64,000 bases of DNA from Chryseobacterium cheonjiense. GTDB taxonomy: Bacteria > Bacteroidota > Bacteroidia > Flavobacteriales > Weeksellaceae. The first letter of the stretch is position 1, and each line of letters opens with the position of its first letter. The stretch spans positions 556,502-620,501 of the forward strand of contig NZ_JABBGF010000001.1 of NCBI RefSeq assembly GCF_012927265.1, written 5' to 3'. The position numbers and the translations under genes were made by a program. Below are positions 5,902-59,315 of the stretch, piece after piece. A model generated the notes under the pieces. It ran no database searches. It saw only the letters and a program-made list of their open reading frames with translations, and was not told the DNA's origin.

Positions 5902-6312
5902 TAATATATTACAGAGCCTTTTTGAATTATAATTTATTTTTAATATTAGAAGTTGTCTTAAAAAAACTTAATAAAAACAATTTATTGATTTCTTACTTTA
6001 TTTCAAATTAATTTGCTGAAATTCTTAAAGTTAACTTTAAAAATAAACAAGTTTATTTAATTTAGAAATTAAGAAGAACCTATAAAAAAATTATTTAGTA
6101 AAATTTAAACAGCTTTTTCAATTAAAAATAAATTCCACAACTCTGAATAAGTATTTCTGAATACATCGGCGATGCTTTCTTGAACTAAAATCTCAAATAT
6201 CTGAACCAAATCACAAAACCATTCTTGTCTATCTGTTGCAACTTTGTCCTGTTATTTCAGGGAAAAAATTCCCTGTATGACAGAATTTTTAGTTAAACAA
6301 ATATTAAACAAA
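5902..6312. other. AT-rich intergenic region with a 16-bp palindrome
   Basis: I see no coding frame I would trust. The region is strongly AT-rich and contains a perfect 16-bp palindrome, TTAAAGTTAACTTTAA, at 6025-6040. The distal part must hold the promoter for the membrane protein at 6313; CAACTTTG at 6239-6246 is a one-mismatch -7 box. Confidence 0.5.
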
Positions 6313-6837: not shown

Positions 6838-7304
6838 TGACTTAAATATCCAAGATATTGAAAATGAAGGGGACGTATTAAATTGATGTTTCTTCAGTAA
6901 GTAAAGGCTCTATCATCAGCTCGAAGCAAAAAACGGGAAAACAATCCGTAAAATTTTATTAAAAATAAAACATTTAATGCAGCAAGCACTCACAAAAATG
7001 TGGGTGCTTTCTCCATATAATTACAGATTTCCGAAATTGATTTTGTTCCATATTATTAATATGAATAATAAAAAAATGTGTATTTCTATATTATCTGTTT
7101 GATTGTCAGTTAATAATAAATTGTTAACTTTAAATGTTCATAATGTTGATCCTTTGTTAATGAACCTTAACAAATAAAAATGGAAATGCTTTGTTTTTTT
7201 AGATAATTTTGAGCCGTTAAAAGTGAAATATTCCTGAATTTAATTACGTAAGGAATTGACAAGGTGATTATTATATATAGTGTGTAATTTTTGAAAAAAG
7301 AGTA
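6838..7304. other. Intergenic region, 467 bases, with a terminator and no gene seen
   Basis: Contains the hairpin terminator at 6984-7012. The rest is AT-rich, with frequent TTAACTTTAA-like and TTAATAA stretches and no credible coding frame on either strand. Confidence 0.5.
6984..7012 (+). terminator. Rho-independent terminator
   Basis: AAGCACTCACA (6984-6994) pairs with TGTGGGTGCTT (6999-7009) with one G-T pair and a 4-base loop; a short T-rich tail follows. It lies 147 bases past the membrane protein gene and would end that transcript. Confidence 0.7.
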
Positions 7305-7892
7305 ATGATTAAGGCAACAAAGGATGATATTCCCAAAATGATAGCAATACTGACAGAGTCTTTTGAAGACAACCAATCTGTAAATTTTGCTGTAAAAAAC
7401 AAAAAGTCACTTCCCTGGCTTTTTGAGTATTCAATCGCCAAAGGATTTCTTTTTGGTGATGTCTGGATGAATAAAGATAAAACCGCCTGTGCGATTTTAC
7501 TGGATCCGAAGAAAAAACAATCGGGTTTACGATCAAAACTGCTTGATCTTAAATTGGTTTTTCAGGTTGTTGGGCTGTCCAGAATGAAGAAAGTCCGTAA
7601 GAAAGAAATGATTACCGAGCAAACGCTTCCTCAGGATATAAATTATATTCATTTATGGTTTTTGGGGGTAGCACCTGAAATGCAGGGCAATGGAATAGGC
7701 ACTTTATTTTTAAAAAAGCTCATCGAACATTACAGACCTTCAAAAGAAGCCATGTGTCTGGAGACTTCCACACTGGTAAACATTCCTTTTTACGAGAAAC
7801 AGGGTTTTTTAAGATATGCAACAAAATATTTCGGATTCGAGTTCTTTTTTTACATTAAACAGCTGCAAAATACAAAGGAGTTTATGTACTAA
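7305..7892 (+). CDS. GNAT family N-acetyltransferase
   Basis: The 195-residue product has the GNAT acetyl-CoA binding core near residues 115-140: IHLWFLGVAPEMQGNGIGTLFLKKLIEHY contains the Q-x-x-G-x-G/A pyrophosphate loop (QGNGIG). It is followed by LETSTLVNIPFYEKQGF, the strand-helix with the conserved N-x-x-F-Y-x-x-x-G-F. The N-terminal half (MIKATKDDIPKMIAILTESF) is the substrate side. The acceptor is unknown. It is convergent with the secreted protein gene at 7915. Confidence 0.9.
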   Translation: MIKATKDDIPKMIAILTESFEDNQSVNFAVKNKKSLPWLFEYSIAKGFLFGDVWMNKDKTACAILLDPKKKQSGLRSKLLDLKLVFQVVGLSRMKKVRKKEMITEQTLPQDINYIHLWFLGVAPEMQGNGIGTLFLKKLIEHYRPSKEAMCLETSTLVNIPFYEKQGFLRYATKYFGFEFFFYIKQLQNTKEFMY

Positions 7893-7903
7893 ACTCCTTT
7901 GTA
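7871..7903. terminator. Bidirectional terminator hairpin between convergent genes
   Basis: TACAAAGGAGTTTA (7871-7884) and TAAACTCCTTTGTA (7890-7903) form a perfect 14-bp inverted repeat with a 5-base loop. It overlaps the stop codon of the GNAT gene and lies 11 bases from the stop of the convergent gene. Confidence 0.6.
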
Positions 7904-7914
7904 TTGATTTGTGA

Positions 7915-9627
7915 TTATTCAACGTCCGGAACAGCTCCGAGAGTAAATTCTATATTTCTTTCCTTGTAAACATTAGGATTTTCTGCAGTAGGTACAATTA
8001 AGGTTAAATAGGTTCTTTCATACGGTTCGTAATTTTTTAAAGCGTCTGAAAAAGACTGTATGTCATATACCGGATGAGATCCCACCGATTTAATGAGTGT
8101 TCCCGGTAAAATATTGTTGCGGTGTAAGGCGCCGCCCACGGTGATGGGTCCAGCCAGCAGGCATTTTACATTTTGTAAAGGGGTGCTATATCCGTTAAAC
8201 ATATAAAGCTGGCCTTCCCACGGCATGGCATCAATCATACCGATTGATGGTTTGTATTTTGCTTCTTCTTTAGCGATAACCGGCTGGGTAACCGCATGCT
8301 GTACAGATATTGTTTTGACGCTACTGTAGTCTTTTGCCATTTTGGTCATTTCAGTGCTGTTCAGTACTCTTTTTATGGATGTTTTGCCACTTCCGCTGTT
8401 ATTTCCCCATCGTACACCATTGGCAATAAAGCCCACATAATCTTTTTTACCCAATGCTGCTACTGCCGCTTCAATATTAGGAGTAAGGTTAGGGTCATTC
8501 TTGGATAAAGCCTCCGCATACTGGAGATGGAAATTCTGTAGTTTTTCGTTACCTTCAGCTTTAGCTTTTTCAGCCGCAGCAAGATGATTTTGGATGGCCT
8601 CCGTTGCAGATATTTCAGGAAAAAATATTTTTTCAAATGCATCAATCATCTCTTCATCCGCATCATACATCTCTATTCTTGTAGCATTGATAGTTTCATC
8701 CTTGTACTGAGAGTTCACTTGTTCGTTAAAAGAAGATTTCATTGATTTTTTACTGCTTCCGAATCCGAGAAATGCCCATCCGCTGGACTTTTGGCTGGTA
8801 CTGCTCTGGTAGGCTTCATTCAATACCTGATTTATAACTGCAGTGGCATCAATATGAGCGCTGATTGAGCTTACTTTAGAATTCTTAAACTTATAGCTCA
8901 CCGATATATCTGCATTTCCGTCTGCTAAGACATTCTTGGTATATTCTGTAGGATTTTCTATCCTGATATTTTTGAAAGTGCCATTCACAATGTAGGTGCC
9001 GGGAATACTTTTGTTATATACCGTTTGCCCACCGGCTTCCACCGTAAACTCCACCTCATTGGGAGAAATAATCTGGCTCTGGAAGTTGGTATTAAAATCA
9101 GTAATGAGCTGTTGCTGCGGTGCAATTACCGTTGCTTCATATTGACTGGCCAATGAAAATAAGTAATTGACAAGGGATGGATTTGAATTTACCAAGGGGC
9201 TCAGCAACGGCTGTCCGTTCATGTTTTTAACAATAGGAGCATAATATGCCGATAGGGTGGTGCTTCTTATTGCTGCGTCAATGGATGCCTTCTGGCTTTC
9301 ATTGGGTAGCGCCAGTTCCTGTGTGACAGGGATCACCAATGTTCGGATGTCATCAGAGTTTTTATAAGTCTCTTTTCCTTTACTGTCTATATATTTAATA
9401 TTATTCACATCAAACTTCAGGATCGGCAAGATATACACTCTCCCGATACTGCCTTTTGGGACGCTCTCATAAAAGCCGTGAGTTGTGTAGGGTATGTATT
9501 TTCCATTTCCGTCTAAGGCAATGTAATTGACTACGGAAAACCTGTTCGTATTGGGAGGGATCGGTTGTGAATAAGCATTTTCGGTACTGGCAATAAGTAT
9601 CAAAAAGATAATTAGAAAATTTTTCAT
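7915..9627 (-). CDS. Secreted protein with a C-terminal PDZ-like domain
   Basis: The 570-residue product begins with a signal peptide (MKNFLIIFLILIASTENAYSQ, cleavage near residue 21). The central part has beta-rich sequence, an alternating SSKKSMKSSFNEQVNSQY stretch and an Ala-rich helical segment (AIQNHLAAAEKAKAEGNEK). Near the C-terminus, a segment running from GGALHRNNILPGTLIKSVGS through VYDIQSFSDALKNYEPYER to LTLIVPT reads like a PDZ domain (carboxylate loop, G-x-x-I-x-x-V-x-G, helix then a closing strand). PDZ domains bind peptide C-termini; this copy has no protease domain attached. It lies 7 bases after the DUF5675 gene, so the two are one operon. The rest of the protein I do not recognise. 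Confidence 0.8.
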   Translation of the reverse strand: MKNFLIIFLILIASTENAYSQPIPPNTNRFSVVNYIALDGNGKYIPYTTHGFYESVPKGSIGRVYILPILKFDVNNIKYIDSKGKETYKNSDDIRTLVIPVTQELALPNESQKASIDAAIRSTTLSAYYAPIVKNMNGQPLLSPLVNSNPSLVNYLFSLASQYEATVIAPQQQLITDFNTNFQSQIISPNEVEFTVEAGGQTVYNKSIPGTYIVNGTFKNIRIENPTEYTKNVLADGNADISVSYKFKNSKVSSISAHIDATAVINQVLNEAYQSSTSQKSSGWAFLGFGSSKKSMKSSFNEQVNSQYKDETINATRIEMYDADEEMIDAFEKIFFPEISATEAIQNHLAAAEKAKAEGNEKLQNFHLQYAEALSKNDPNLTPNIEAAVAALGKKDYVGFIANGVRWGNNSGSGKTSIKRVLNSTEMTKMAKDYSSVKTISVQHAVTQPVIAKEEAKYKPSIGMIDAMPWEGQLYMFNGYSTPLQNVKCLLAGPITVGGALHRNNILPGTLIKSVGSHPVYDIQSFSDALKNYEPYERTYLTLIVPTAENPNVYKERNIEFTLGAVPDVE

Positions 9628-46156: not shown

Positions 46157-46804
46157 TTACTTATTGTACAGTCTGAGAATTTCTACCAATTCGGGGACGG
46201 ATCGTATTTTCAGCTTCTCAAACAGCCTGTTTTTGTAAGTGCTGACCGTTGAAGAATGGATGTTCAGTTGATTAGAAATTTCTTTGAGGGGAAGACCTTC
46301 TGCAAGCTTATTGGCAATTTGCAGTTCGCGGTCTGATAACGCTTCAAAGGGCGAATCTTTTGCAGCACCGTTTAATGATTCTAAAAACATCGCTTCCTTT
46401 ACCTGGTCACTGAAATATCGGCCCTTGTCGAGCATTGCCGTTACAGCAGTCTTAACCACTTCAGAAGAGCTTTGTTTGCTTAAATAGCCACCGGCACCCA
46501 TCTTTAGGTAACGCATTGCATACAACTCTTCATCCTGTGAAGAAAATATTAAAATTTTTAATTCAGGTTTATGAATTTTTATGTAATGTATTGCTTCCTG
46601 AACAGTACCATTAGGCATATTGACGTCCATAATGACCAGATCAAACTCTTCTTTCAGAATTACTTTGTAGAGTGATTTATAATCTTCTACTTCTGAAATT
46701 ACTGCTTCGGGACTAAGTCGTTTGATCGTTTGTACCAGACCCATCCGGACAATACCATGATCATCTGCCACCACAATCCGGGTATTTAATTTTAAATCCT
46801 TCAT
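46157..46804 (-). CDS. NarL/LuxR-type response regulator
   Basis: The 215-residue product has a receiver domain (about 8-125: IVVADDHGIVRMGL, LVIMDVNMPNG with phospho-acceptor Asp60, SSQDEELYAMRYLKMGAGGYLSKQ) and a LuxR-type helix-turn-helix (about 150-213: LSDRELQIANKLAEGLPLKEISNQLNIHSSTVSTYKNRLFEKLKI). No kinase gene is adjacent, so the input is unknown; one of the PAS kinases in this window could serve, but that is speculation. It lies 238 bases downstream, on the same strand, of the operon ending in the tip-like gene, and may control the fibre genes. Confidence 0.93.
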   Translation of the reverse strand: MKDLKLNTRIVVADDHGIVRMGLVQTIKRLSPEAVISEVEDYKSLYKVILKEEFDLVIMDVNMPNGTVQEAIHYIKIHKPELKILIFSSQDEELYAMRYLKMGAGGYLSKQSSSEVVKTAVTAMLDKGRYFSDQVKEAMFLESLNGAAKDSPFEALSDRELQIANKLAEGLPLKEISNQLNIHSSTVSTYKNRLFEKLKIRSVPELVEILRLYNK

Positions 46805-47009
46805 GCGGTAAATTTAGGCAAAAAAAGAGATATGATTCTATTACTTTCAGACGAAAGAATACCACATTTCTGCGCACTAAGGATATAAAATTTTCACAAT
46901 TTTTTCAAACTTAGTCCAGCTCCTTTCCCGCAATAGTTACCGGAATTTAAAATAATCAAAAATGTAAATCGCTCATAAATGCTTTTCGTCTATTCCTATT
47001 ATTGCTGTT

Positions 47010-47032
47010 AAAAAAGCAAAAAAGAGCTTTTT
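47010..47032 (-). terminator. Terminator of the chaperone/usher-like operon
   Basis: AAAAAGC (47011-47017) and GCTTTTT (47026-47032) form a 7-bp stem with an 8-base loop on a T-rich background (minus-strand transcript). It lies 11 bases after the stop of the 478-residue gene. Confidence 0.5.
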
Positions 47033-47042
47033 AGAAGTATTG

Positions 47043-48479
47043 TTAAATTGCCGTAAAGCTATAATAAACATTGATAGAGTACGTGGTATTTTCCTTTCCT
47101 ACCAAACTTTGGGCACCTGCAGGCGGTATGGTGTACATTACGTCCAGTTGCCTGTCCAGGACCGGGGTTCCGTTAAAAAGTATTTTTTGAGGCGTTTTGG
47201 ATAAGGGAGCATTTACAGAACTTCCATCCACGCCTATTTGTAATATGTTGGAGTTAATGTCAGTCTGCAGACCGCCTTTCTTGAAATAATTTTCGTCTGA
47301 TTTTACGTACAATTCAAAACTTTCATTATTAGACAATATAATTTGGCTTGGTATGACCTGTGACTGGCCATTGGCGTAATGTGAAGCGGTATTAAAATTG
47401 AAGTTTACATTTCGTCCGGAACTGGGAATGGTGATCTCCGACCGGGGAAGCACCTTTAGCTGAACCGCCGTATTTTGTAAACTGTTAATTGAGTTATCAG
47501 TACTTCTTACACTGAAGTTCAATTCAAACGTATACGTTCCTGCTTCAAAAAAATAGTTTTTAAAATCTTCTGCAGACACATAAAGCTCCGGCATGAAGCT
47601 GTTTCTGTTTCCTGCTCCCACACTGAAGCCGGCTGGGGAGAAATTCTGAAAATCAGCAGATAAGGCTTTGGTTGTGAGTGCAGATCCACTACTGCCCAAT
47701 TTAATGCTTGCTATATTTCTGGTTCCAGGAACGCCTTTGGAAGAAGTAAACTGAATATTAGCAGCAGCAGCTTTCGCCCATAAATTAAAATCGACGGTAT
47801 GTGCGATCTCCGCATTATCCAAATTCAGAACCCGAGTGCCTGTAATTCGGTAGTCACTCAAAGAAGATATTTCTATGTATTTTGTTAACGATGTTGTAAG
47901 CCATCTGATGGATTGGGGAATGACTAAAATTGTTTTAAAATTACGGGGCGTGAAATCATTATAATTCTGAGTAATATCCATAGAGTAATTCCCGGCCCGG
48001 AAGGTATTGGCAGCAAACTGTGCGGCAGGGATTTTAAACGTGAAATTGATATTTCCCTTGTTGAATCCTCCTCCAAAAATAATGGACCCGGGCGGTTCAA
48101 ACCATCTTACAGCGCTTGTACTGAATGATTGAAAACCTGGTAAAGAACCCGAATATCCGGTAGATGGCAGCTGCCCGCCCATACTTTCCAACTGCCACAG
48201 AAGAGCGGAACTGGGTAAAGTAGATGAAGACGAAGAGTGCGTAAAAGCTGGTCCCGACACAGAAGTAAATGTAGGAGCTATCGGCGCCAATCCGAAAAAG
48301 GCATAATCCCAGTTTGTTCTGTAGGCGTTCACCATTACCCTTGTCGGTACTGAGGTAAATTCACTCCTGTTAAAAATATTATTTTCAGGAATCGTCAGGT
48401 ACACATCCTGAGCGTTCGTGAATGCTGACCCGCAGAACACTGTAAAAATTCCTATTAAAAATGCCCTCATCGTTTTCAT
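47043..48479 (-). CDS. Multi-domain secreted protein with a C-terminal pilin-like domain (putative tip adhesin)
   Basis: The 478-residue product has a signal peptide (MKTMRAFLIGIFTVFCGSAF, cleavage near 23). I see three beta-rich domains, each ending in an A-G-x-Y-rich strand: FRAGNYSMDITQNY (about 150-165), FEAGTYTFELNFSV (about 325-340) and NTTYSINVYYSFTAI at the C-terminus. The last domain (about 345-478) follows the subunits: FNFNTASHYANG, SFELYVKSDENYFKKGG, TPQKILFNGTPVLDRQLDVMYTIPP, then the closing strand. A large N-terminal part plus one C-terminal pilin domain is how tip adhesins such as FimH are built. It is the last gene of the operon. Confidence 0.75.
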   Translation of the reverse strand: MKTMRAFLIGIFTVFCGSAFTNAQDVYLTIPENNIFNRSEFTSVPTRVMVNAYRTNWDYAFFGLAPIAPTFTSVSGPAFTHSSSSSTLPSSALLWQLESMGGQLPSTGYSGSLPGFQSFSTSAVRWFEPPGSIIFGGGFNKGNINFTFKIPAAQFAANTFRAGNYSMDITQNYNDFTPRNFKTILVIPQSIRWLTTSLTKYIEISSLSDYRITGTRVLNLDNAEIAHTVDFNLWAKAAAANIQFTSSKGVPGTRNIASIKLGSSGSALTTKALSADFQNFSPAGFSVGAGNRNSFMPELYVSAEDFKNYFFEAGTYTFELNFSVRSTDNSINSLQNTAVQLKVLPRSEITIPSSGRNVNFNFNTASHYANGQSQVIPSQIILSNNESFELYVKSDENYFKKGGLQTDINSNILQIGVDGSSVNAPLSKTPQKILFNGTPVLDRQLDVMYTIPPAGAQSLVGKENTTYSINVYYSFTAI

Positions 48480-48489
48480 ACCTTTAAAT

Positions 48490-51294
48490 TTAAAACTTTT
48501 TCACCTTAATGGTGGTGTCTTTCTTTTTATATTCAAAAATCACGGTTTCTGAATAACCTTCTTTCGTCACGTGAATAGTTTGGGTAGGTTGTGTATAGCT
48601 GTATTTGTCGTTTTCAATATAGAGATCGTACTTTCCATCTTTAAGGAAAAACTCAAACTCATTTTTTTGGTTAACCACGGCAGTATAGATCATCCCATCT
48701 TCACTTTTTGCATACACCACGATTCCGGTTACATCCGTTTCCACGACATCATAGTCCTGTTTGATCTCTTTTAATTTTCCGCTTACCCTGATGTTTTTTA
48801 CCAAGCCCACTTTGCGGTTGATATTGTTATTTACCATAATTACAGGATCCATCATCAATCGGGAACCCGCACTTTCGTTCACCTTTAATTTGTAAATGCC
48901 TTCAGGTACATTTTGAAAGACTACTTTTCCGTTCTTATCCGTCATCGCTACATAATTGTCCAGCTTCACTATTTCATTCGCAAGAACCAATTCACCCGCA
49001 TCCAGAAGTCCATTGAAATTTTTATCTTCAAATAACTGGAACGTCACTTTATGATTTCCCAGAGCCGTTGCTGCGGCAAAATATTTTTTTATCCCCACTC
49101 TGAACTGGTAATAATTGCCACTGCTGGCATAAGCAGCCGTAGATTTATAACCGGATAAATTAAAATAACCTGTGGTGGACCATGAAGGTGAAATCTTATA
49201 TTCCAGGTTACCGCTCACATTGCTGTTTAAGTTTTTATAAAGTTGCGAATAGGACGTTCCGGCTGAAAAAGATCCCGTCAGGTTATTATTAAGCATATGG
49301 AAATTATACGAAGCGTATAAATTGTAGTTGGCGAAATTACGGTCTGCATCGTAATAAGAATTTAAATCAAATACACTGGTTGCATTCCATTGGGCTGTTC
49401 CGTTGAGGGAAAAAGATTTATACCTGTAAGATAATGTTGCTTTCAGACTGTTGAACCAATCGGCCTTATTATTCTCTTTGGAATAAGAATATTCCGCAGT
49501 TAAATTCAATCCGTGAGCACCCAATGTAGTGCTTATGTTGGCCTCAATACGGTAAGAAAAAAGTTCCTGTGAGTTGTAAAAATTAGCTGTTTTTTGTCTT
49601 TCAACCTTTGGAGCAAGTAGAAAATTCCAATTATTTAAAGAAAACTGGTACCCTGATCCCAAAGCCTCTGTACTGTTGAAATAATAACGTAGATTATCGG
49701 TATTCCCCGTTTCGATAGGCGCACTCTGAATACTCAGGAACTCCGGATCTATCTGCGAATTCTGATATTGTATAAACGCGCGCTGCGTAGGAGAAAATTG
49801 GCGGCTGATCCGCTGATTTAAGAAAAAAGATCCCCGTTTGATTCCTGCATAACTTTTGGTGGCAAAAGAATTAACAGATTGTATATCCCATTTTCCTACT
49901 TTTCCTTCGTAATTGGCTCCCATTGAAGCGCCTGCATTTTCATCTTTGTTCAGAAGGCCTTTTTCGTGGCTCAGGCCCGCCTCCGTGCGGATGGTATGCT
50001 TATCGTTAATTAAAAATGATGTTACCGCATTTGCCACCTGTGTATCTACGTTAAGGCGCGGATCATGTTCAAATAGATAAGACACTTTTCCACTGAAAGA
50101 TTTAGCATTCCCAAAATTATATTTTGCACCCGCTATGGTGGATCCTTTTGTTTGTTGGAAATATGTACCATACAGGTTATAATTATTTTCCAGCGCAAGA
50201 ATTTCAATCTGATTATTTAGACCGAATTTGGTAGAAACTTTTCCGCCTCTCCCGAAAACCGGATAATCGTAATCGTTGCTGTTAACATTTCCCAACCGTA
50301 ATACCGTATTCTTTCTCTCCAGCTCCAGCCAGGTATCATACAGGTTATAGCGGCCGTCTTCAAGATAGTAATCCGCACCAATATTGAAGCGCGATTTTAG
50401 ATTTTCCGTCATCCGGAACACTGTGTTTCCCCTCAATTGAAGAAAATTGAAACCTGAACTGTTTTCGTTATAGCTAAATTCTGCAAAATTACTTCCGTTT
50501 GACGCTTCATTTTCGCGAGCAATTTGTCTGTTGTTCGATAAAATGACTAAGTGGAGCGTATTGCCTCCCACAATTTCATTATTAAGCACGTCTGTGGCGT
50601 TTGCATTAATATTAAATTCTGGAAAAAGCATATTCTGTTTTCTGACCACAATTTTGATCTCAACCGTTTGCTTTTCTAAACCTTCCAGCGATACGGTCTG
50701 TTGTTTTGGCATCATTTCCAAACCGTCAGGAATGGATTGCAAATCAATCTTTACGGTTCGTTTACTATAGCCTTGGTTTTCTACTATCAGCAGAATTGAG
50801 GAGTCCGGCGCAGCAGGATTAATAAAATTCTCGTAGGCTGCCGTATAAATTGCGATATTATTGTTCTCTTCTTTTTTAATGAAGAACGAGGCACTTTCAG
50901 TTCTGGTGACCGATGGAGTGGTGTACGAAACCTGGAATCTGATCTCATTGGATCTCAGTTTCATAAAATCTACGTTGGCGATCAGTTTTACGGGAAGATT
51001 TTTAGACTGGCCCGCACCTAAGGTAAAGTCATTTTTAGAATAGAAAAGCAAACCCGGGTAATTTTCCTGAGGCATGATATTCTGAATTGTAATTTCTTCA
51101 GAGCTTTTATTCTCAACAACCAGGAAATTAGTAAAAGTCGAACCCTTTTCAACAGCTACACTGTCATTTTCAAAATGGATTTCGACATCCTTCTTTTCCT
51201 GCGCAAAAGCTAACGAAAAGTTCAGAAGAACAAATGCAAAAAGTAAGATTGTTCTTTTTATGATTGACATCGACATTCCATTTTGGGGTTTCAA
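48490..51294 (-). CDS. Outer-membrane beta-barrel protein, putative usher analogue
   Basis: The 934-residue product has a signal peptide (about 10-32, ending LNFSLAFAQ). Two Ig-like domains follow (about 33-265): FTNFLVVENKSSEEITIQNI is the kind of N-terminal strand seen in chaperone and archaeal/NEW3-type domains. The middle (about 270-745) has alternating aromatic/polar strands of an outer-membrane barrel (NLKSRFNIGADYYLEDGRYN, KATLSYRYKSFSLNGTAQWN). The C-terminus has an SdrD B-like domain (FEDKNFNGLLDAGELVLANE, about 755-840) and a final beta sandwich. It is not a recognisable FimD/PapC usher, but its position between chaperone and tip genes fits that job. The start could also be the ATG at 51276 or 51270. 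Confidence 0.7.
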   Translation of the reverse strand: MKPQNGMSMSIIKRTILLFAFVLLNFSLAFAQEKKDVEIHFENDSVAVEKGSTFTNFLVVENKSSEEITIQNIMPQENYPGLLFYSKNDFTLGAGQSKNLPVKLIANVDFMKLRSNEIRFQVSYTTPSVTRTESASFFIKKEENNNIAIYTAAYENFINPAAPDSSILLIVENQGYSKRTVKIDLQSIPDGLEMMPKQQTVSLEGLEKQTVEIKIVVRKQNMLFPEFNINANATDVLNNEIVGGNTLHLVILSNNRQIARENEASNGSNFAEFSYNENSSGFNFLQLRGNTVFRMTENLKSRFNIGADYYLEDGRYNLYDTWLELERKNTVLRLGNVNSNDYDYPVFGRGGKVSTKFGLNNQIEILALENNYNLYGTYFQQTKGSTIAGAKYNFGNAKSFSGKVSYLFEHDPRLNVDTQVANAVTSFLINDKHTIRTEAGLSHEKGLLNKDENAGASMGANYEGKVGKWDIQSVNSFATKSYAGIKRGSFFLNQRISRQFSPTQRAFIQYQNSQIDPEFLSIQSAPIETGNTDNLRYYFNSTEALGSGYQFSLNNWNFLLAPKVERQKTANFYNSQELFSYRIEANISTTLGAHGLNLTAEYSYSKENNKADWFNSLKATLSYRYKSFSLNGTAQWNATSVFDLNSYYDADRNFANYNLYASYNFHMLNNNLTGSFSAGTSYSQLYKNLNSNVSGNLEYKISPSWSTTGYFNLSGYKSTAAYASSGNYYQFRVGIKKYFAAATALGNHKVTFQLFEDKNFNGLLDAGELVLANEIVKLDNYVAMTDKNGKVVFQNVPEGIYKLKVNESAGSRLMMDPVIMVNNNINRKVGLVKNIRVSGKLKEIKQDYDVVETDVTGIVVYAKSEDGMIYTAVVNQKNEFEFFLKDGKYDLYIENDKYSYTQPTQTIHVTKEGYSETVIFEYKKKDTTIKVKKF

Positions 51295-51304
51295 GACTTA
51301 ATTT

Positions 51305-52105
51305 TTAAAATTTAAAGTTTTTTTCGCCTACGCGTAAATCGTTGGATCCTGCCATTTTGATAATAGCCACGCCAAGGAAGTTCCCGGAAATGTTATCCGG
51401 TAAAGAAAAATGAACCACCTGATCGGTATTGGGAAGCATGGAGATGGAAATTGCGGGTAATTTTATTTCCTTACCATGATCTGTGTCGGTTAGTTCAAGC
51501 TCAACGGTGGCATCATTGACGGTGTTTCCATCGTTATGAATGCTTACGGCGACTTTTCTGTTCGCTGCACCTGCATTACTCACCTCTGAAATATTGGTAA
51601 TATCCAAACTTTTAACATTGTTCCCTGGTGGAGTATAAAAGATGTGAAGTCCCACTTCGAATAAGGTGATAATACCAATCCCGTTTTGAGCCCGTACCTG
51701 ATCTGCCTGTTGAGGAAGCTGCGTAAAAAACAACATGCTGTTCGTCACGGCAGACTTTGATGCGTTTGTCGGAATCTGCATGGTTACTACGATCTCCTTT
51801 GTGCTTTTCGCAGGAACTGTGATAGCGTTTTCTAAGGTAGATACCCAAGAAGCATTGGAGGTTTTTGAACTGCCTGCATCAAGATATACCTTATTTCCAT
51901 CCTCATCTCTAACCCAGTCTTTATAGTTGAGATTAAAAACATAATCCTTATCCGAGCTGTTTTGAAGTGTGACTGTCTGTGTTACTTTTTCTCCTGGATT
52001 ACCGGTAAAAAATAAGCGTGTAGGCGACATAGAAATACTTTGTGCCAGAAGTGAAGAAGACCCTGTAAGGATGAAGAAAATGAAAAGGTGAATAAACTTG
52101 TGCAT
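51305..52105 (-). CDS. PapD-like periplasmic chaperone
   Basis: The 266-residue product has a signal peptide (about 1-21, SSLLAQ end) and two Ig-like domains. Domain 1 (about 22-140) opens ISMSPTRLFFTGNPGEKVTQTVTLQNSSDKDYVF, the usual start of PapD-type chaperones, and includes VPAKSTKEIVVTMQIPTNAS. Domain 2 (about 155-266) ends ISGNFLGVAIIKMAG. Pilus chaperones carry the subunits across the periplasm by lending a beta strand. It lies 79 bases after the subunit gene at 52185 and 10 bases before the barrel gene, in one operon. Confidence 0.82.
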   Translation of the reverse strand: MHKFIHLFIFFILTGSSSLLAQSISMSPTRLFFTGNPGEKVTQTVTLQNSSDKDYVFNLNYKDWVRDEDGNKVYLDAGSSKTSNASWVSTLENAITVPAKSTKEIVVTMQIPTNASKSAVTNSMLFFTQLPQQADQVRAQNGIGIITLFEVGLHIFYTPPGNNVKSLDITNISEVSNAGAANRKVAVSIHNDGNTVNDATVELELTDTDHGKEIKLPAISISMLPNTDQVVHFSLPDNISGNFLGVAIIKMAGSNDLRVGEKNFKF

Positions 52106-52184
52106 GGTGTAAATTGTTTAAAAATAAAGATTCCCAAAACTACTGAAACTTAACTAAAGGAACCTTCACAAACTAAAGAAATTA

Positions 52185-52730
52185 TTATAAAGCAGTCGCA
52201 GTATACGTTACGGTTTGTGTATATGTTCCTGCTGGTTTTCCTAAAATATCAGAAGAAGAAGATTTTGCTGCTGGAATCGTGTAGTCCAGATTCAATGTCA
52301 GTGCGCTTCCCAGCGGGGCATTTGCCACTAAAGTCTGATCAGCTGCGGATAACACAACCGCATTTTTTGTACCGCCCATGGTTCCGGCCGCTGCTGAAGT
52401 TTTAATGGTCAAAACATTTACAGGAATTAAGTTGGTTCCATTGATAAAATTCGCACCCCCTGCTTTTACTTTTACATCGAAGCTCTTGGTTGAAGTCACT
52501 TTCAAAGCGTTGGCTTGGGCCACTGTTTTTTCTGAATTATAGTCCGCTGCAGTAACATAGTTAAAAGCAACTGCACCACCACCTGCAGTACTTCCGTTAT
52601 CGATAGAGATTACATCATTCAGGGTAATGTTTACAGTGGTTGTTGCCGTAGTATTCTGAGCCTGGATAGTGTTTGTTCCTAATACGAATGCTCCGATAGT
52701 TAATGCTGCGATAGCGATTTGCTTTTTCAT
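52185..52730 (-). CDS. Pilin-like secreted subunit S1a
   Basis: The 181-residue product has a signal peptide (MKKQIAIAALTIGAFVLGTN, cleavage near 25 after QAQ), an N-terminal stretch rich in T and V (NTTATTTVNITLNDVISI) that could be the donor strand, and a beta-sandwich-like body ending GTYTQTVTYTATAL. The product is identical in all 181 residues to that at 57132. It is the nearest subunit gene to the chaperone, without a clear terminator between them, so it probably leads the chaperone-usher-tip operon. Confidence 0.8.
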   Translation of the reverse strand: MKKQIAIAALTIGAFVLGTNTIQAQNTTATTTVNITLNDVISIDNGSTAGGGAVAFNYVTAADYNSEKTVAQANALKVTSTKSFDVKVKAGGANFINGTNLIPVNVLTIKTSAAAGTMGGTKNAVVLSAADQTLVANAPLGSALTLNLDYTIPAAKSSSSDILGKPAGTYTQTVTYTATAL

Positions 52731-52783
52731 AATGATATTATTTTATTTTTTATTCTTGTTTAGTTGTTCCCTTTTGAACATTA

Positions 52784-52841
52784 CAAATGTACATCGGCAA
52801 TACATTTTTCTCTGTAGTGGAACATGGAAGTTGATGTAGTG
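52784..52841 (-). promoter_or_regulatory. Subunit promoter with two TGTAGTG repeats (S1a)
   Basis: On the minus strand TACATTTG (52791-52784) is the -7 box, 54 bases before the ATG. Upstream, in plus-strand form, TGTAGTG occurs at 52813-52819 and 52835-52841, 22 bp apart, about positions -36 and -58. No -33 TTG exists, which fits an activator-dependent promoter. Confidence 0.55.
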
Positions 52842-52941
52842 AAATCGCCACAGATATTTCGATTATTCGTTTAAAATATAAATCGTCATTAAATGATAAT
52901 TCTTTTTAAGGTACATTTCTCTATATCGAATTAAGACATAC

Positions 52942-52973
52942 AAAAATCAAAGGCCTCCCGTAGGAAGCCTTTG
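52942..52973 (-). terminator. Terminator of S2a
   Basis: CAAAGGCTTCC and GGAGGCCTTTG (minus strand) form an 11-bp stem with one G-T pair and a TACG loop, followed by ATTTTTG. It ends the gene at 53033. Confidence 0.7.
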
Positions 52974-53032
52974 AACACCAAATCACAAAATATTAATATG
53001 AAATTAATTTACTTTTAGTCAGGAAATAAATT

Positions 53033-53578
53033 TTATAAAGCAGTCGCAGTATACGTTACTGTTTGTGTATATGTTCCTGCTGGTTTTCCTAAAATATCAG
53101 AAGAAGATGATTTTGCCGCTGGAATCGTGTAGTCCAGATTCAGTGTCAATGCGCTTCCCAGCGGGGCATTTGCCACTAAAGTCTGATCAGCTGCCGATAA
53201 CACAACCGCGTTTTTCGTACCGCCCATGGTTCCGGCCGCCGCCGCCGCTTTAATTGTCAGAACATTTACAGGGATTGTGCTGGTTCCGTTCATGAAATTC
53301 GCACCTCCTGCTTTTACTTTTACATTAAAATTCTTTGTTGAAGTCACTTTTAAAGAGTTGGCTTTAGTAACCGTCTGATCAGAGTTGTAATCTGCTGCAG
53401 TAGCATAGTTAAAGTCAACTGTATTGCCGATTGCAGTACTTCCCGCGTCGATAGAGATGACATCATTCAGGGTAATGTTTACAGTGGTTGTTGCTGTAGT
53501 ATTTTGAGCCTGGATAGTGTTTGTTCCTAATACGAATGCTCCGATAGTTAATGCTGCGATAGCGATTTGCTTTTTCAT
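53033..53578 (-). CDS. Pilin-like secreted subunit S2a
   Basis: The 181-residue product has the same signal peptide and ends as S1, with a different middle: VISIDAGSTAIGNTVDFNYA and VTKANSLKVTSTKNFNVKVK. It differs from the gene at 58023 by one alanine in the A-A-A-A-G region, caused by a change in a GCC repeat (see findings). It has its own promoter and terminator. Confidence 0.8.
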   Translation of the reverse strand: MKKQIAIAALTIGAFVLGTNTIQAQNTTATTTVNITLNDVISIDAGSTAIGNTVDFNYATAADYNSDQTVTKANSLKVTSTKNFNVKVKAGGANFMNGTSTIPVNVLTIKAAAAAGTMGGTKNAVVLSAADQTLVANAPLGSALTLNLDYTIPAAKSSSSDILGKPAGTYTQTVTYTATAL

Positions 53579-53631
53579 AATGATATTATTTTATTTTTTA
53601 TTCTTGTTTAATTGTTCTCTTTTGAACATTA

Positions 53632-53689
53632 CAAATGTACATCGGCAATAAACTTTTCTCTGTAGTGGAACATGGAAGTTGATGTAGTG
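53632..53689 (-). promoter_or_regulatory. Subunit promoter with two TGTAGTG repeats (S2a)
   Basis: TACATTTG at 53639-53632; TGTAGTG (plus form) at 53661-53667 and 53683-53689, again 22 bp apart. The arrangement matches S1a. Confidence 0.55.
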
Positions 53690-53727
53690 AAATCGCCACA
53701 AGTATTTTCGTTTATTCGTTTAAATAA

Positions 53728-53763
53728 GAAAGCCCTCAACACTTTTAAGTGTTGAGGGCTTTC
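53728..53763 (-). terminator. Terminator of the lost S3 copy
   Basis: GAAAGCCCTCAACACTT and its reverse complement form a perfect stem of 17 bp. It is the exact counterpart of 58715-58750 and now serves only the S3 remnant. Confidence 0.8.
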
Positions 53764-53785
53764 CTCAAATAGTTGTTTGATATAA

Positions 53786-53835
53786 TTATAAAGCGGTCGC
53801 TGTATAAATAACTGTTTGCGTATACGTTCCGGCAA
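53786..53835 (-). pseudogene. 3' remnant of an S3-type subunit gene
   Basis: The stop codon (53786-53788) and about 15 codons encoding AGTYTQTVIYTATAL match the end of the gene at 58773 almost base for base. Similarity stops near 53835. The rest of the gene is missing and the sequence turns into the region before the C45 hydrolase gene. This is the edge of the duplicated block. Confidence 0.8.
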
Positions 53836-53912
53836 GGGTTTTAAGAGTCATCAGCTACAATTACTGCAATAAGAGGATAAATGATGCTGTATCAGCAAAT
53901 TTTTAACTGGCT

Positions 53913-55016
53913 TTACGATTTCGGCAAAATGGTTTCAAAAAATTGAGCAATATTTTTTTTCAGTTTCTCAAAAATACTTGAATTTTCAAACTCTTTATTG
54001 TCATATCCTATCGGAAATCCTTTCTCAACATATTGATTATTTTTCTCAACCGTAAGATTTTGAAATTCATTGTTGACCATTCCGGTTTCATCAGTGTGAA
54101 TATCTAAATATTTTACAGCAGCATTTTTAGAAAAATCCAGCTTTCTGATATTGATGGTCTTTATCTCTTTTTTGAGATCTGATCTAAAATACAGATTCAT
54201 TGTCTTGGTATCGATAACGGTCTGCCATTCGCCCGGATATATCGAATTTAAAATATTCCAGGCATAGTCTACAGGCTTTTCATCATACGTATAATTTTTC
54301 AGCATGTAATAAGCACGGTTGTAGCGATCTTCCCAGTTTTGGTTTTGTTTAACATCAAACTTTTCAGGTCCGCCGAGAAAATCAAATTTTTTGGCCGCAG
54401 TTAAATCCTTTTGGTATTGATTATTGCACAGAAGCGGCATCGGCATTTCCTTATTGGTCAGAACCGTATACTTACCATTCAGCAAAGCGATCGTTGCTGA
54501 GTTTCCTTCTGCATCGGTGAGGAAAAAGTGACTGCCGGCCGCGTTAGGCCACCAGTCGATATTGGGCCCGTCATTAAGATGGTTGATTACTTCTTTCACC
54601 GTTTTGTAATTATCCAACTGGTATTGGATCCATTGCGCCCAGAACATATTGGCTTGTTTTGGATTATATACCTTACTGGTTTCTTCCAGGTATAATTCAA
54701 CTAAGAAAAGACCTTTTTCATTGATTCCATAGCAGGGAAAATCGTATCCTAAAAGATTAAAGGTAACAGACCCGAATTTTGAGGTCCACTGTTGATGAGG
54801 CTGAAGCTGATCTGTTGTTAAATTCTGCCAGCTTATATTCCTTTTATAAACATCACGTTTATTGACCACGATCATTCCCGGCATTGTTTTCCAGTTTTCA
54901 TTGAAGCCAACGATGTTGTAATTTTTACCAGTAAGCAAAAAAGCGGAGCATGCCTTACTTTGAACTGAGTATAGCATAACACAAAGCATGATATGGCGGA
55001 GAAAGAAAATTTTCAT
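53913..55016 (-). CDS. Secreted C45-type (penicillin V acylase-like) Ntn hydrolase
   Basis: I start at the ATG at 55016 (MKIFFLRHIMLCVMLYSVQS), which gives a signal peptide; the longer frame upstream is unneeded. The product is 367 residues. Cleavage after Ala22 would expose Cys23 (SKACSAFLL), the N-terminal nucleophile of choloylglycine hydrolase/penicillin acylase-type enzymes. Further motifs: VGFNENWKTMPGMIVVNKRD, FPCYGINEKGLFLVELYLE and FLTDAEGNSATIALLNGKYTVLTN, all of the family. It cleaves an amide bond of an unknown substrate. It sits between the two subunit blocks. Confidence 0.85.
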   Translation of the reverse strand: MKIFFLRHIMLCVMLYSVQSKACSAFLLTGKNYNIVGFNENWKTMPGMIVVNKRDVYKRNISWQNLTTDQLQPHQQWTSKFGSVTFNLLGYDFPCYGINEKGLFLVELYLEETSKVYNPKQANMFWAQWIQYQLDNYKTVKEVINHLNDGPNIDWWPNAAGSHFFLTDAEGNSATIALLNGKYTVLTNKEMPMPLLCNNQYQKDLTAAKKFDFLGGPEKFDVKQNQNWEDRYNRAYYMLKNYTYDEKPVDYAWNILNSIYPGEWQTVIDTKTMNLYFRSDLKKEIKTINIRKLDFSKNAAVKYLDIHTDETGMVNNEFQNLTVEKNNQYVEKGFPIGYDNKEFENSSIFEKLKKNIAQFFETILPKS

Positions 55017-55278
55017 AAACAAATAATTATATTGATTAATGGCCCTAGCAATAGGAAGATTCACAGACTTTATTTCTAAGAACAAATATATCATAATCAA
55101 CCACAATAGGTCAATGGTTATTTCTAACCAAAATGGATAATTAACCAGACTTAAAGCCCATAAACCTCGAGAATCAAATGATTAACTGACCATAATTACT
55201 AAAAATCCCGGCTTTGTTTGCCGGGATTCTAAATTTTTGATCTTATTTTTCTAATTTTCAGAGAAACTTTCCCTGATA

Positions 55279-56172
55279 TTAGAAGAAATATTGATCCAGT
55301 TCTTCAATAAAACTATTTTCAGAAGGTTCCCATCCTAATTTTTCCCGAGTCTTCACACTTGTTGCCGGACAATTTGCCCCAACAAAAAACGTCATCCAGG
55401 TGAAATATTCTGATGCCTCTTCCTGAGACAAAGATTTAACAGGAATATCAAGTTTTTGACCGATTAATTCTGCAAAATCTTTCATTGACAAGGGCTGATC
55501 ATTATTAACAGCATTATATCGCGCTCCAACTTCTCCTTTTTCAAGGGCCAGACGAAATAGTTTTGCGGCATCTGTACGATGAACAGAAGGCCAGACGTTA
55601 TTTCCCTCTCCAATGTAAGCTGCTAGTCCTTTAGTCTTCGCCTGTTCCGCAAGCATCACTCCAAAACCTCCTTTGAAACCTGATTCAGAATTTCCGTAAA
55701 CACTTGGGGATAGACGAACGATAGATGCCCTGACACCAGATTCCGACAGACTTACAAATGCTTTTTCAGAAAATCTGATTGATTCTGCCGGTGCTTTACT
55801 TTCCTCCGTGACTTGTCCGTTGATAAGGGGAAGCCCTAAAGTCCCGCCTGTTACCACAATGGGTTTGTCGGTTCCTTTTAACACTTCACCCATTGCTTCA
55901 ATAGCTTTCTGATCTTTGAGCGCATTGCTTTGATAATCTGAAAAATCGTGTATAAAAGCGGTATGAATGACACCATCCGTTTCTCTTGCTCCTTTTTGCA
56001 AAATATCGAGAGTCTCCAAATCTCCTCTTAAAACTTCTGCTCCGGCTTCTCTGATGGATTTTGCAGATTCTTCCGAACGCGCCAGTCCAACTACCTGATG
56101 TCCGTTTGATAACAACTCTTTTACAACTGCTGAGCCTACAAATCCTGAAGCTCCTGTTACAAATACTTTCAT
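55279..56172 (-). CDS. NAD-dependent epimerase/dehydratase-like SDR
   Basis: The 297-residue product begins MKVFVTGASGFVGSAVVKEL with the GxxGxxG motif (residues 7-13). Next come GLARSEESAKSIREAGAEVLRGDLETLD and VIHTAFIHDF, an extended SDR pattern. VRLSPSVYGNSESGF and SVHRTDAAKLFRLALEKGEVG complete it. The active-site Y-x-x-x-K is not clear (FSEKAFVSLSE region), so it may be an atypical member. A Crp gene is divergent from it. Confidence 0.87.
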   Translation of the reverse strand: MKVFVTGASGFVGSAVVKELLSNGHQVVGLARSEESAKSIREAGAEVLRGDLETLDILQKGARETDGVIHTAFIHDFSDYQSNALKDQKAIEAMGEVLKGTDKPIVVTGGTLGLPLINGQVTEESKAPAESIRFSEKAFVSLSESGVRASIVRLSPSVYGNSESGFKGGFGVMLAEQAKTKGLAAYIGEGNNVWPSVHRTDAAKLFRLALEKGEVGARYNAVNNDQPLSMKDFAELIGQKLDIPVKSLSQEEASEYFTWMTFFVGANCPATSVKTREKLGWEPSENSFIEELDQYFF

Positions 56173-56207
56173 ATTCTTAAATTTTGTTTTTGTAATAATT
56201 TCTACTG

Positions 56208-56215
56208 CAAATTTA
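56208..56215 (-). promoter_or_regulatory. -7 box TAAATTTG for the SDR gene
   Basis: TAAATTTG on the minus strand ends 35 bases before the ATG at 56172, in the divergent region shared with the Crp-type gene. Confidence 0.45.
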
Positions 56216-56311
56216 GTTGTGAATAAATCCCGAAAACGAGGTCATTTGACACAATTTTCATATTAATCCAATAAAAAGGATTAATTTTAAATATAATTTC
56301 AGTTTTTGAAA

Positions 56312-56899
56312 ATGTCAGAGATTCTTAAAAATTACTTTCAGAGAGTTCTTCCCGATTTCACGGATGAAAAGTTCAATTTCATCCTGTATAAAAGTCAATT
56401 GATAAAACTTCAACGGAAAGAGATTGTATGCCGGCAAGGTGATATTTGTAATCTGAAAATCTTTGTTGCCAAAGGACTTCTTCGAAATTATTCAACCTCT
56501 GAAGATGGCAATGAACATATTCTCCAGTTTGTTAACGAAATGTCATGGACAACCGACCCCGAAAGTTTCTACAACAATACACCTTCTAAGCTGACGATTG
56601 AAGCAATGGAATCTTCGGAAATCTTCGCTTTTAATCTTGAAGATTTTGCTGTACTGCGAAAACAAATCCCTGAACTCAATATTTTTGTAGAGAACATCCT
56701 GACAAGAAAGTCCATGGAAATCCATAGACGGCTTTTGATGAATATCAGCAGCAGTCCGGAAGAGAAATACCTGGATTTCATCAATACGTATCCTGATATT
56801 TTCAACCGGGTTCCCCTGCATATGGTAGCTTCTTATCTTGGGCTTTCGAGGGAAACATTATCGCGTGTCCGCAGAAATATTCTGAAGACAGTGATTTGA
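56312..56899 (+). CDS. Crp/Fnr family transcriptional regulator
   Basis: I use the ATG at 56312 (MSEILKNYF), not the TTG 6 bases upstream; this gives 195 residues. The N-terminal beta-roll (KLQRKEIVCRQGDICNLKIFVAKGLLRNYSTSEDGNEHILQF) and the C-terminal winged helix (RVPLHMVASYLGLSRETLSRVRRNIL) are clear. No cAMP-contact residues or Fe-S cysteines are evident. It is divergent from the SDR gene and may regulate it. Confidence 0.9.
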   Translation: MSEILKNYFQRVLPDFTDEKFNFILYKSQLIKLQRKEIVCRQGDICNLKIFVAKGLLRNYSTSEDGNEHILQFVNEMSWTTDPESFYNNTPSKLTIEAMESSEIFAFNLEDFAVLRKQIPELNIFVENILTRKSMEIHRRLLMNISSSPEEKYLDFINTYPDIFNRVPLHMVASYLGLSRETLSRVRRNILKTVI

Positions 56900-57076
56900 A
56901 ACTTTTATAATCCAGTCGCCAGGACTCGTTTATAAGAATTACGAAATGGAAATTTCTTTATTTTTATATCTAAATATTACCATCTTTAATGTAGATCTTA
57001 ATACCATTTCTTATAGTGATAATACATTTGCATTCTTTCTTATAGGTATTTTATAAGGAAGTTCGTTTAAAAAAGA

Positions 57077-57109
57077 AAGCCCCCAACACCTTGAAAGCAT
57101 TGGGGGCTT
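57077..57109 (-). terminator. Terminator of S1b
   Basis: AAGCCCCCAA and TTGGGGGCTT (arms at 57077-57086 and 57100-57109) form a 10-bp perfect stem; the minus-strand transcript continues into TTCTTTTTT. Confidence 0.85.
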
Positions 57110-57131
57110 ATATAAAATTCCCTTTTTTTTA

Positions 57132-57677
57132 TTATAAAGCAGTCGCAGTATACGTTACGGTTTGTGTATACGTTCCTGCTGGTTTTCCTAAAATATCAGA
57201 AGAAGATGATTTTGCCGCTGGAATCGTGTAGTCCAGATTCAATGTCAATGCGCTTCCCAGCGGGGCATTTGCTACTAAAGTCTGATCAGCTGCGGATAAC
57301 ACAACCGCGTTTTTTGTACCACCCATGGTTCCGGCCGCTGCTGAAGTTTTAATGGTCAAAACATTTACAGGAATTAAGTTGGTTCCATTGATAAAATTCG
57401 CACCCCCTGCTTTTACTTTTACATCGAAGCTCTTGGTTGAAGTCACTTTCAAAGCGTTGGCTTGAGCCACTGTTTTTTCCGAATTATAGTCCGCTGCAGT
57501 AACATAGTTAAAAGCAACTGCACCACCACCTGCAGTACTTCCGTTATCGATAGAGATTACATCATTCAGGGTAATGTTTACAGTGGTTGTTGCCGTAGTA
57601 TTCTGTGCCTGGATGGTGTTTGTTCCTAATACGAATGCTCCGATAGTTAATGCTGCGATTGCGATTTGCTTTTTCAT
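57132..57677 (-). CDS. Pilin-like secreted subunit S1b
   Basis: The 181-residue product is identical to S1a in every residue; only silent or non-coding changes are seen in the DNA. Same signal peptide and beta-sandwich body. Its own terminator follows, and it is not next to chaperone genes. Confidence 0.8.
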   Translation of the reverse strand: MKKQIAIAALTIGAFVLGTNTIQAQNTTATTTVNITLNDVISIDNGSTAGGGAVAFNYVTAADYNSEKTVAQANALKVTSTKSFDVKVKAGGANFINGTNLIPVNVLTIKTSAAAGTMGGTKNAVVLSAADQTLVANAPLGSALTLNLDYTIPAAKSSSSDILGKPAGTYTQTVTYTATAL

Positions 57678-57730
57678 AATGATATTATTTTATTTTTTAT
57701 TCTTGTTTAATTGTCCTCTTTTGAACATTA

Positions 57731-57788
57731 CAAATGTACATCGGCAATACATTTTTCTCTGTAGTGGAACATGGAAGTTGATGTAGTG
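57731..57788 (-). promoter_or_regulatory. Subunit promoter with two TGTAGTG repeats (S1b)
   Basis: TACATTTG at 57738-57731; TGTAGTG at 57760-57766 and 57782-57788, again 22 bp apart. Confidence 0.55.
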
Positions 57789-57887
57789 AAATCGCCACAG
57801 ATATTTCGTTTATTCGTTTAAAAATATAAATCGTCATTAAATGATAATTCTTTTTAAGGCACATTTCTCTATATCAATTAAGACATA

Positions 57888-57920
57888 CAAAAATCAAAGA
57901 CCTCCCGTAGGAAGCCTTTG
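57888..57920 (-). terminator. Terminator of S2b, one pair weakened
   Basis: Same hairpin as at 52942-52973, but copy B has A in place of G (CAAAGACCTCC), so one base pair of the stem is lost (A opposite C). Confidence 0.6.
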
Positions 57921-58022
57921 AACACCAAATCACAAAATATTAATATGATAAAATTAACTTTTCAGTCAGGAAATAATTTTGCTAGCATCCTGAATCTGGA
58001 TTTGCAGAAAAAATTCAGCAAT

Positions 58023-58565
58023 TTATAAAGCAGTCGCAGTATACGTTACTGTTTGTGTATACGTTCCTGCTGGTTTTCCTAAAATATCAGAAGAAGATGA
58101 TTTTGCCGCTGGAATCGTGTAGTCCAGATTCAGTGTCAATGCGCTTCCCAGCGGAGCATTTGCTACTAAAGTCTGATCAGCTGCCGATAACACAACCGCG
58201 TTTTTCGTACCGCCCATGGTTCCGGCCGCCGCCGCTTTAATTGTCAGAACATTTACAGGGATTGTGCTGGTTCCATTCATGAAATTCGCACCTCCTGCTT
58301 TTACTTTTACATTAAAATTCTTTGTTGAAGTCACTTTTAAAGAGTTGGCTTTAGTAACCGTCTGATCAGAGTTGTAATCTGCTGCAGTAGCATAGTTAAA
58401 GTCAACTGTATTGCCGATTGCCGTACTTCCTGCGTCGATAGAGATCACATCATTCAGGGTAATATTTACGGTTGTAGTTGCCGTAGTATTCTGAGCCTGG
58501 ATAGTGTTTGTTCCTAGTACGAATGCTCCGATAGTTAATGCTGCGATAGCGATTTGCTTTTTCAT
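58023..58565 (-). CDS. Pilin-like secreted subunit S2b
   Basis: The 180-residue product matches S2a except for one missing alanine (A-A-A-G where S2a has A-A-A-A-G) at the GCC-repeat site (58225-58233). Own promoter and terminator. Confidence 0.8.
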   Translation of the reverse strand: MKKQIAIAALTIGAFVLGTNTIQAQNTTATTTVNITLNDVISIDAGSTAIGNTVDFNYATAADYNSDQTVTKANSLKVTSTKNFNVKVKAGGANFMNGTSTIPVNVLTIKAAAAGTMGGTKNAVVLSAADQTLVANAPLGSALTLNLDYTIPAAKSSSSDILGKPAGTYTQTVTYTATAL

Positions 58566-58618
58566 AATGATATTATTTTATTTTTTATTCTTGTTTAATT
58601 GTTCTCTTTTGAACATTA

Positions 58619-58676
58619 CAAATGTACATCGGCAATAAACTTTTCTTTGTAGTGGAACATGGAAGTTGATGTAGTG
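58619..58676 (-). promoter_or_regulatory. Subunit promoter with two TGTAGTG repeats (S2b)
   Basis: TACATTTG at 58626-58619; TGTAGTG at 58648-58654 and 58670-58676, spacing 22 bp. Confidence 0.55.
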
Positions 58677-58714
58677 AAATCGCCACAAGTATTTTCGTTT
58701 ATTCGTTTAAATAA

Positions 58715-58750
58715 GAAAGCCCTCAACACTTTTAAGTGTTGAGGGCTTTC
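58715..58750 (-). terminator. Terminator of S3
   Basis: GAAAGCCCTCAACACTT and its reverse complement, a perfect 17-bp stem, 22 bases after the S3 stop codon. Confidence 0.85.
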
Positions 58751-58772
58751 CTCAAATCGTTGTTTGATATAA

Positions 58773-59315
58773 TTATAAAGCGGTCGCGGTATAAATAACT
58801 GTTTGCGTATATGTTCCGGCAGGTTTCCCCAGAAGCACCTTCGATGCTTTTTCCGCCGGAATAGAGTAAGCAATATTTAAAGATTGTTTAGCGCCTGAAG
58901 CTGCATTACTTACCAGTACCTGATCATTTGTAGATAAGGTAACCTCATTCAGGGTTCCCACTAAACTTCCGCCCGGTACTGCTTTTACCTGTAATATATC
59001 TACCGGAATTACGTTCGCGCCACTTACAAAGTTTGCGCCTTCAGATTTTACTTTGACATCAAAATTTTTGGAGGAAATGATGACCAAACTGTTGGGAACC
59101 GTCACATTTTTTGATGAATTATAATCTTTCGTACTCCCATAATTAAAATCTATAGTGCCTCCTGACGCAACAGTGCCTGCATCCAATGCAATAACATCTG
59201 CTAAAATAATATTTACTGATGTAGTTGCCTGTTCAGAATTTTGTGCCAGAACCTGGTTGGTTCCTAAAGCGATTGCTCCCAAAGACAGTGCAGCGATAAA
59301 GATTTGTTTTTTCAT
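58773..59315 (-). CDS. Pilin-like secreted subunit S3
   Basis: The 180-residue product has a related but distinct signal peptide (MKKQIFIAALSLGAIALGTN), followed by QATTSVNIILADVIALDAG, IDFNYGSTKDYNSS, FDVKVKSEGANFVSGA and the end GTYTQTVIYTATAL. It is clearly homologous to S1 and S2 but more divergent. It lacks the TGTAGTG promoter type; its upstream DNA is unrelated. A remnant of a second copy is at 53786. Confidence 0.8.
   Translation of the reverse strand: MKKQIFIAALSLGAIALGTNQVLAQNSEQATTSVNIILADVIALDAGTVASGGTIDFNYGSTKDYNSSKNVTVPNSLVIISSKNFDVKVKSEGANFVSGANVIPVDILQVKAVPGGSLVGTLNEVTLSTNDQVLVSNAASGAKQSLNIAYSIPAEKASKVLLGKPAGTYTQTVIYTATAL

Follow-up and report, generated by a model that had tools for sequence, protein, structure and literature searches.

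A putative chaperone-usher system with a plug-less, Ig-headed usher-like protein in Chryseobacterium cheonjiense

Textbook ushers are gated pores, in which a plug closes a 24-strand barrel and an N-terminal domain receives chaperone-subunit pairs. A gene cluster that is probably a divergent system of this kind resides in a 64,000-nucleotide stretch of the Chryseobacterium cheonjiense genome (assembly GCF_012927265.1, contig NZ_JABBGF010000001.1, positions 556,502 to 620,501; hereafter the window). Its predicted products are surface fibres linked by donor strands, and the usher would be a distant, plug-less relative of FimD/PapC headed by immunoglobulin (Ig)-like domains. The division of labour proposed in an earlier sequence-only reading of the window (subunits, PapD-like chaperone, usher-like protein and likely tip protein) is supported by the analysis. 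The usher family table of PMC4827864 (PubMed Central, PMC) covers Proteobacteria, Spirochaetae, Cyanobacteria and Deinococcus/Thermus, with ushers of ~830 residues and 24 strands, and the survey in PMC4793230, in the portion of its text drawn on here, leaves out the chaperone-usher pathway. Within Bacteroidota, the type V pili FimA/Mfa1 of Porphyromonas are formed from lipoprotein precursors cut by Rgp, and the passages of PMC4789730 and PMC5789003 on Porphyromonas gingivalis report neither an usher nor a fimbrial chaperone. No chaperone-usher description for Bacteroidota was found in the open-licence PMC literature, as judged by titles and abstract starts.

Predicted fold of the usher-like protein

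The AlphaFold2 (AF2) model of the barrel protein (pLDDT, the predicted local distance difference test, 78.7; pTM, the predicted template modelling score, 0.48) features two Ig-like domains set before the barrel (Ig1, ~37-141; Ig2, ~147-257), a barrel of 26 predicted strands at 269-739, and two C-terminal beta domains (~747-843 and ~859-924), with borders taken by eye from the strand list of the model. The start of the protein is uncertain, as a TTG start yields 934 residues and the closest relatives have 926-928. FimD and PapC likewise have a large barrel with two beta domains behind it at the C-terminus, and the structural alignment of the prediction to these extends over residues 260-925.

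The plug of FimD is located after strand 6, in agreement with the FimD sequence. In the register of the FimD alignment, strands 1-6 of the model match the beginning of the FimD barrel, strands 6 and 7 are joined by a 3-residue turn (residues 358-360), and a plug domain is absent from the predicted barrel. Relocation of the plug to Ig1, Ig2 or the C-terminal domains was considered and rejected, all profile comparisons being at 3.6% or lower. Ig1 and Ig2 resemble each other (profile likeness 95.7%), and Ig2 is weakly similar to E. coli chaperones (51.7%), and may have taken over a recruiting or sealing role. Taken as predicted, the protein is an usher that lacks a plug and is headed by Ig domains.

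Ushers of the phylum and alternative readings of the barrel

At E ≤ 1, PF00577 matched none of the 13 members of the barrel protein family, the one from the window included, and it found nothing in the genome of C. cheonjiense; the usher is in this respect non-canonical, as the sequence-only reading had maintained. Pfam and NCBIfam searches gave the protein no family name. As to sequence searches of the PDB, one returned nothing, the other had as best match NOMO2 (E 6e-4), confined to the C-terminal domain. PapC_N had no Pfam match, and trimmed hhalign comparisons to it reached 0.1-0.5%, in a low-power test in which ushers of a second group, called class I to distinguish them from the family of the window (class II), also reached only 1.7%.

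Among 296 genomes of the phylum, PF00577 scored above cut-off in none; three matches below threshold (24.3, 22.1 and 18.7 bits) belong to open frames coding for 1010-1455 residues, which are of class I. Usher-like systems are nonetheless common. Long class I matches (>300 bits, counted from the listing) occur in 43 of the 296 genomes, a number which includes the 11 genomes used for the profile and three rows containing internal stops (G399, G471 and G497). Class I proteins align with E. coli K-12 ushers (hhalign 97.5% over 645 columns) and carry a plug-like insert comparable to the E. coli plug (69.8%), while their N-terminal part alone does not align with E. coli ushers (1.7%). In 19 of 20 usher loci, which had not been picked by chaperone, a chaperone-profile match at E 1e-3 or better lies at most two genes from the usher; the one locus without it is L100, and L111 gives the weakest case. 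L100 hosts a class II-like usher (5708-8698) with no chaperone detectable in the fetched stretch, and small neighbours matching the subunit profile at E 0.2-0.8. Ushers of the phylum in L093-L110 vary from 850 to 1460 residues and have C-terminal tails, with a weak TPR match in L093.

The barrel protein could simply be a conventional usher whose sequence has diverged too far to reach the Pfam cut-off, its plug being supplied by an N-terminal Ig domain or by another protein, in which case the mechanism would not be new. Drift alone does hide ushers in this phylum, as class I proteins keep the plug-like insert and yet fall below cut-off. The reading is nevertheless unlikely, since the plug site is reduced to a short turn, the longest gap between barrel strands measures 23 residues, and neither Ig domain fits the plug profile (0.2-0.6%).

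Quite unlikely is also the hypothesis of a barrel without homology to ushers, an independent secretion pore recruited alongside a PapD-like chaperone and pilin-like subunits. In a Foldseek search with the model, ranks 1-10 are all FimD/PapC chains, and the best non-usher match is ~900-fold weaker than the tenth usher match. Among the best 50 rows, ushers alone align through both the barrel and the C-terminal domains, to residues 922-925, and profile alignment by hhalign puts strands 1-6 and the LG(D/N)..RG motif in register with FimD. On these grounds the barrel protein is called usher kin, and is probably a distant relative of FimD/PapC. Class I proteins, clear usher kin, moreover share with class II the C-terminal domain pair (99.2%). 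Two results weigh against this kinship: the sequence link to FimD depends on the profile used, and class II and class I barrels do not align (0.3-2.0%). Single-sequence hhalign was dropped as too weak to prove usher homology; the 88 "others" in that comparison include, by the threshold chosen, a few distant class II members, as L107 and L110. The sequence-only reading had anticipated a large barrel, which the model contains. It had also assigned the usher slot to an unrelated-looking protein, which is probably wrong, and had envisaged a distinct assembly pathway; the data fit better a branch that has diverged within the known pathway, and which differs in lacking the plug and in having two Ig-like domains at the front.

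Chaperone, subunits and gene order

A two-domain PapD-like periplasmic chaperone is encoded in the cluster, as judged from its sequence. Profile A2 aligns by hhalign with nine E. coli K-12 chaperones (95.5%, E 1.5e-8) over 203 columns spanning both domains, and the family conserves Arg30 and position 154, which align with Arg8 and Lys112 of PapD. The Pfam PapD_N family scores 14.7 bits, short of its cut-off of 23, and WxLIP_HBD was not found by Pfam in the chaperone. A WxL/WxLIP-like surface complex forming no fibre, in which the 266-residue protein would be an Ig protein that binds the surface, with export of single subunits by the barrel, is very improbable: the first domain of the chaperone does reach 27.8 bits with WxLIP_PGBD, slightly above the cut-off of 27.3, and 5 of 13 family members, the one from the window among them, match this family at E ≤ 1, but the match spans one Ig domain and the two-domain alignment goes to PapD-type chaperones, the subunits resemble pilins of polymerising systems, and neither subunits nor the 478-residue protein match WxL families in Pfam, further neighbours not having been searched for WxL or LPXTG. 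As a separate matter, the score obtained with this Gram-positive family hints at a distant link between WxLIP proteins and pilus chaperones.

Pfam assigns the window subunits to no family at E ≤ 1; their predicted fold is pilin-like. Hydrophobic residues alternate at positions 33, 35 and 37 in 28 of 28 subunits, in an N-terminal strand (V33-N-I35-T-L37) that is conserved and not confidently placed in the AF2 model. The pattern would suit a donor-strand design, which is considered likely. The 478-residue protein has no Pfam match at E ≤ 1 and carries the subunit fold at its C-terminus, as previously proposed (independent E-value 1.4e-22); it is likely a tip adhesin, made of an N-terminal part and a pilin-like domain.

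The gene content and order of the cluster can be read directly from the DNA (Table 1). In the order of the window (type A), subunits are followed by chaperone, usher, 478-residue protein and regulator. In type B loci the order is subunit, chaperone, a ~341-residue two-part protein, and usher; 42 such loci were named, in Chryseobacterium, Flavobacterium, Elizabethkingia, Niabella, Sphingobacterium and a Vicingaceae bacterium, and 40 show the full order, L148 being truncated by a contig end and L153 showing no separate subunit. Such recurrence in 40 of 42 related loci makes the cluster more than a chance association. These loci coincide in part with 20 stretches fetched around barrel-protein matches, 18 of which have a chaperone homologue at most two genes from the usher, with both on one strand in all but L056; the other two (L057 and L058) match by the C-terminal domain only, have no chaperone, and were left out of the system count.

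Full-length relatives of the barrel protein occur at 46% and at 15-20% identity, and those named by organism at 82-88%, among the matches listed, are all from Chryseobacterium. Profile A1 lists 90 of the 296 genomes, most rows corresponding to the widespread C-terminal domain; full-length matches map to 10 places in 6 of the 296. An NCBI record of Paenimyroides baculatum (P0125, 81% identical) is named fimbria/pilus outer membrane usher protein, so automatic annotation has already touched the family. The C. cheonjiense genome hosts a second full-length system, of type B (L092, 8847-14085), including subunit, chaperone, a 343-residue protein and usher. The orphan type B subunit gene of the window lies ~0.77 Mb from it on the same contig, and may be a spare or stranded subunit.

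Table 1. Features of the chaperone-usher-like locus and related genes in the window
Feature	Position	Strand	Evidence
LuxR-type response regulator, likely local regulator	46157..46804	-	Pfam Response_reg 71.3 bits, GerE 54.3 bits
478-residue two-part protein, likely tip adhesin	47043..48479	-	subunit profile A3 at residues 334-477
Usher-like outer-membrane protein, 934 residues	48490..51294	-	AF2 model, Foldseek, hhalign to FimD
PapD-like periplasmic chaperone, 266 residues	51305..52105	-	hhalign vs E. coli chaperones
Subunit copy A, 181 residues	52185..52730	-	pilin-like fold, AF2 + VIA-align
Subunit copy B, 181 residues	53033..53578	-	89.9% identical to copy A
Subunit remnant, last 15 residues	53789..53833	-	tblastn 93-100% over 15 residues
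Subunit copy A'	57132..57677	-	protein 100% identical to 52185-52730 over 181 residues
Subunit copy B', 180 residues	58023..58565	-	DNA 96% identical to copy B over 300 nt
Distinct subunit, 180 residues	58773..59315	-	54-57% identity to other four subunits
Orphan type B subunit gene, 174 residues	14402..14926	+	95% identical to subunit of type B module L092

In the open reading frame list of the window, subunit, chaperone, barrel protein, 478-residue protein and LuxR regulator were all found on the minus strand where the sequence-only reading had placed them, as were the four further subunit genes and, by tblastn, the remnant upstream. The genes of the system share this strand, but the stretch is not one continuous run: the array, made of five complete genes and the remnant, is split by three genes (53913-55106, -; 55279-56172, -; 56306-56899, +), judged by eye from their translations to be outside the system. 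Copies A and A' are 98% identical in DNA over 300 nt; the near-identity of A/A' and B/B' suggests a recent duplication of a pair. The remnant and the three foreign genes, set between two near-identical subunit pairs (53789-56899), resemble the outcome of an insertion plus a duplication.

All seven type A loci fetched at 18-20 kb (L039-L045) encode a LuxR response regulator homologue downstream of the gene for the tip protein. A 244-residue protein is interposed in five (L040-L042, L044 and L045); a hybrid histidine kinase, confirmed by Pfam, occupies the same place in L040 (999-5187), and large proteins with weak regulator similarity are found there in L044 and L045. The window and L039 have neither the 244-residue protein nor the kinase.

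Predicted assembly and relation to known systems

In the assembly route that we propose, subunits would reach the periplasm by the Sec route, as their N-termini look signal-like by eye, and be presumably cleaved. Each subunit, an incomplete Ig-type domain, would then be capped by the G1 strand of the chaperone (residues 145-149), as the chaperone motif suggests. The tip protein, having no usable N-terminal donor strand, would enter first; at the usher, the V33-N-I35-T-L37 strand of each subunit would displace that of the chaperone, and the barrel would serve as the exit for the fibre. Recruitment, and perhaps sealing, for which FimD has its N-domain and plug, would fall here to the two N-terminal Ig-like domains. 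Expression is likely controlled by the LuxR regulator. In a broader view, Bacteroidota may hold, besides type V, a hidden second pilus route, whose ushers, having lost both the plug and the N-domain, use a duplicated Ig tandem, one member of which is chaperone-like, for gating and recruitment around a pore of at least 24 strands under a control unlike that of known ushers; we regard this proposal as evenly balanced between right and wrong. If true, a working plug-less usher would demonstrate another way of gating the pore, and usher gating would become testable. Bacteroidota would also join the chaperone-usher map, as the phylum is missing from the family table of PMC4827864.

The closest known systems are type 1 and P pili (FimC-FimD-FimA/H, PapD-PapC). 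Shared with them are the gene complement, a two-domain chaperone with an Arg/Lys-type anchor, a barrel followed by two C-terminal domains, a protein joining adhesin and pilin domain, and pilin-like subunits. The usher differs in falling below PF00577, in having no plug after strand 6 and two Ig-like domains at the front, in its length (926-934 residues) and, provisionally, in its 26 predicted strands versus 24. The archaic (sigma) Csu pili of Acinetobacter differ from the system of the window, where the subunits are without a Pfam match at E ≤ 1 and the usher lacks both plug and PF00577. Type V pili (FimA/Mfa1 of Porphyromonas) belong to the same phylum, and donor-strand assembly has been discussed for them as well. 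Class I ushers of the phylum, such as those of L093 and L099, have the same C-terminal domain pair and the same neighbourhood with chaperone and subunits; unlike the usher of the window, they keep the plug-like insert and reach 97.5% in the alignment to E. coli ushers, and their barrel does not align with that of class II.
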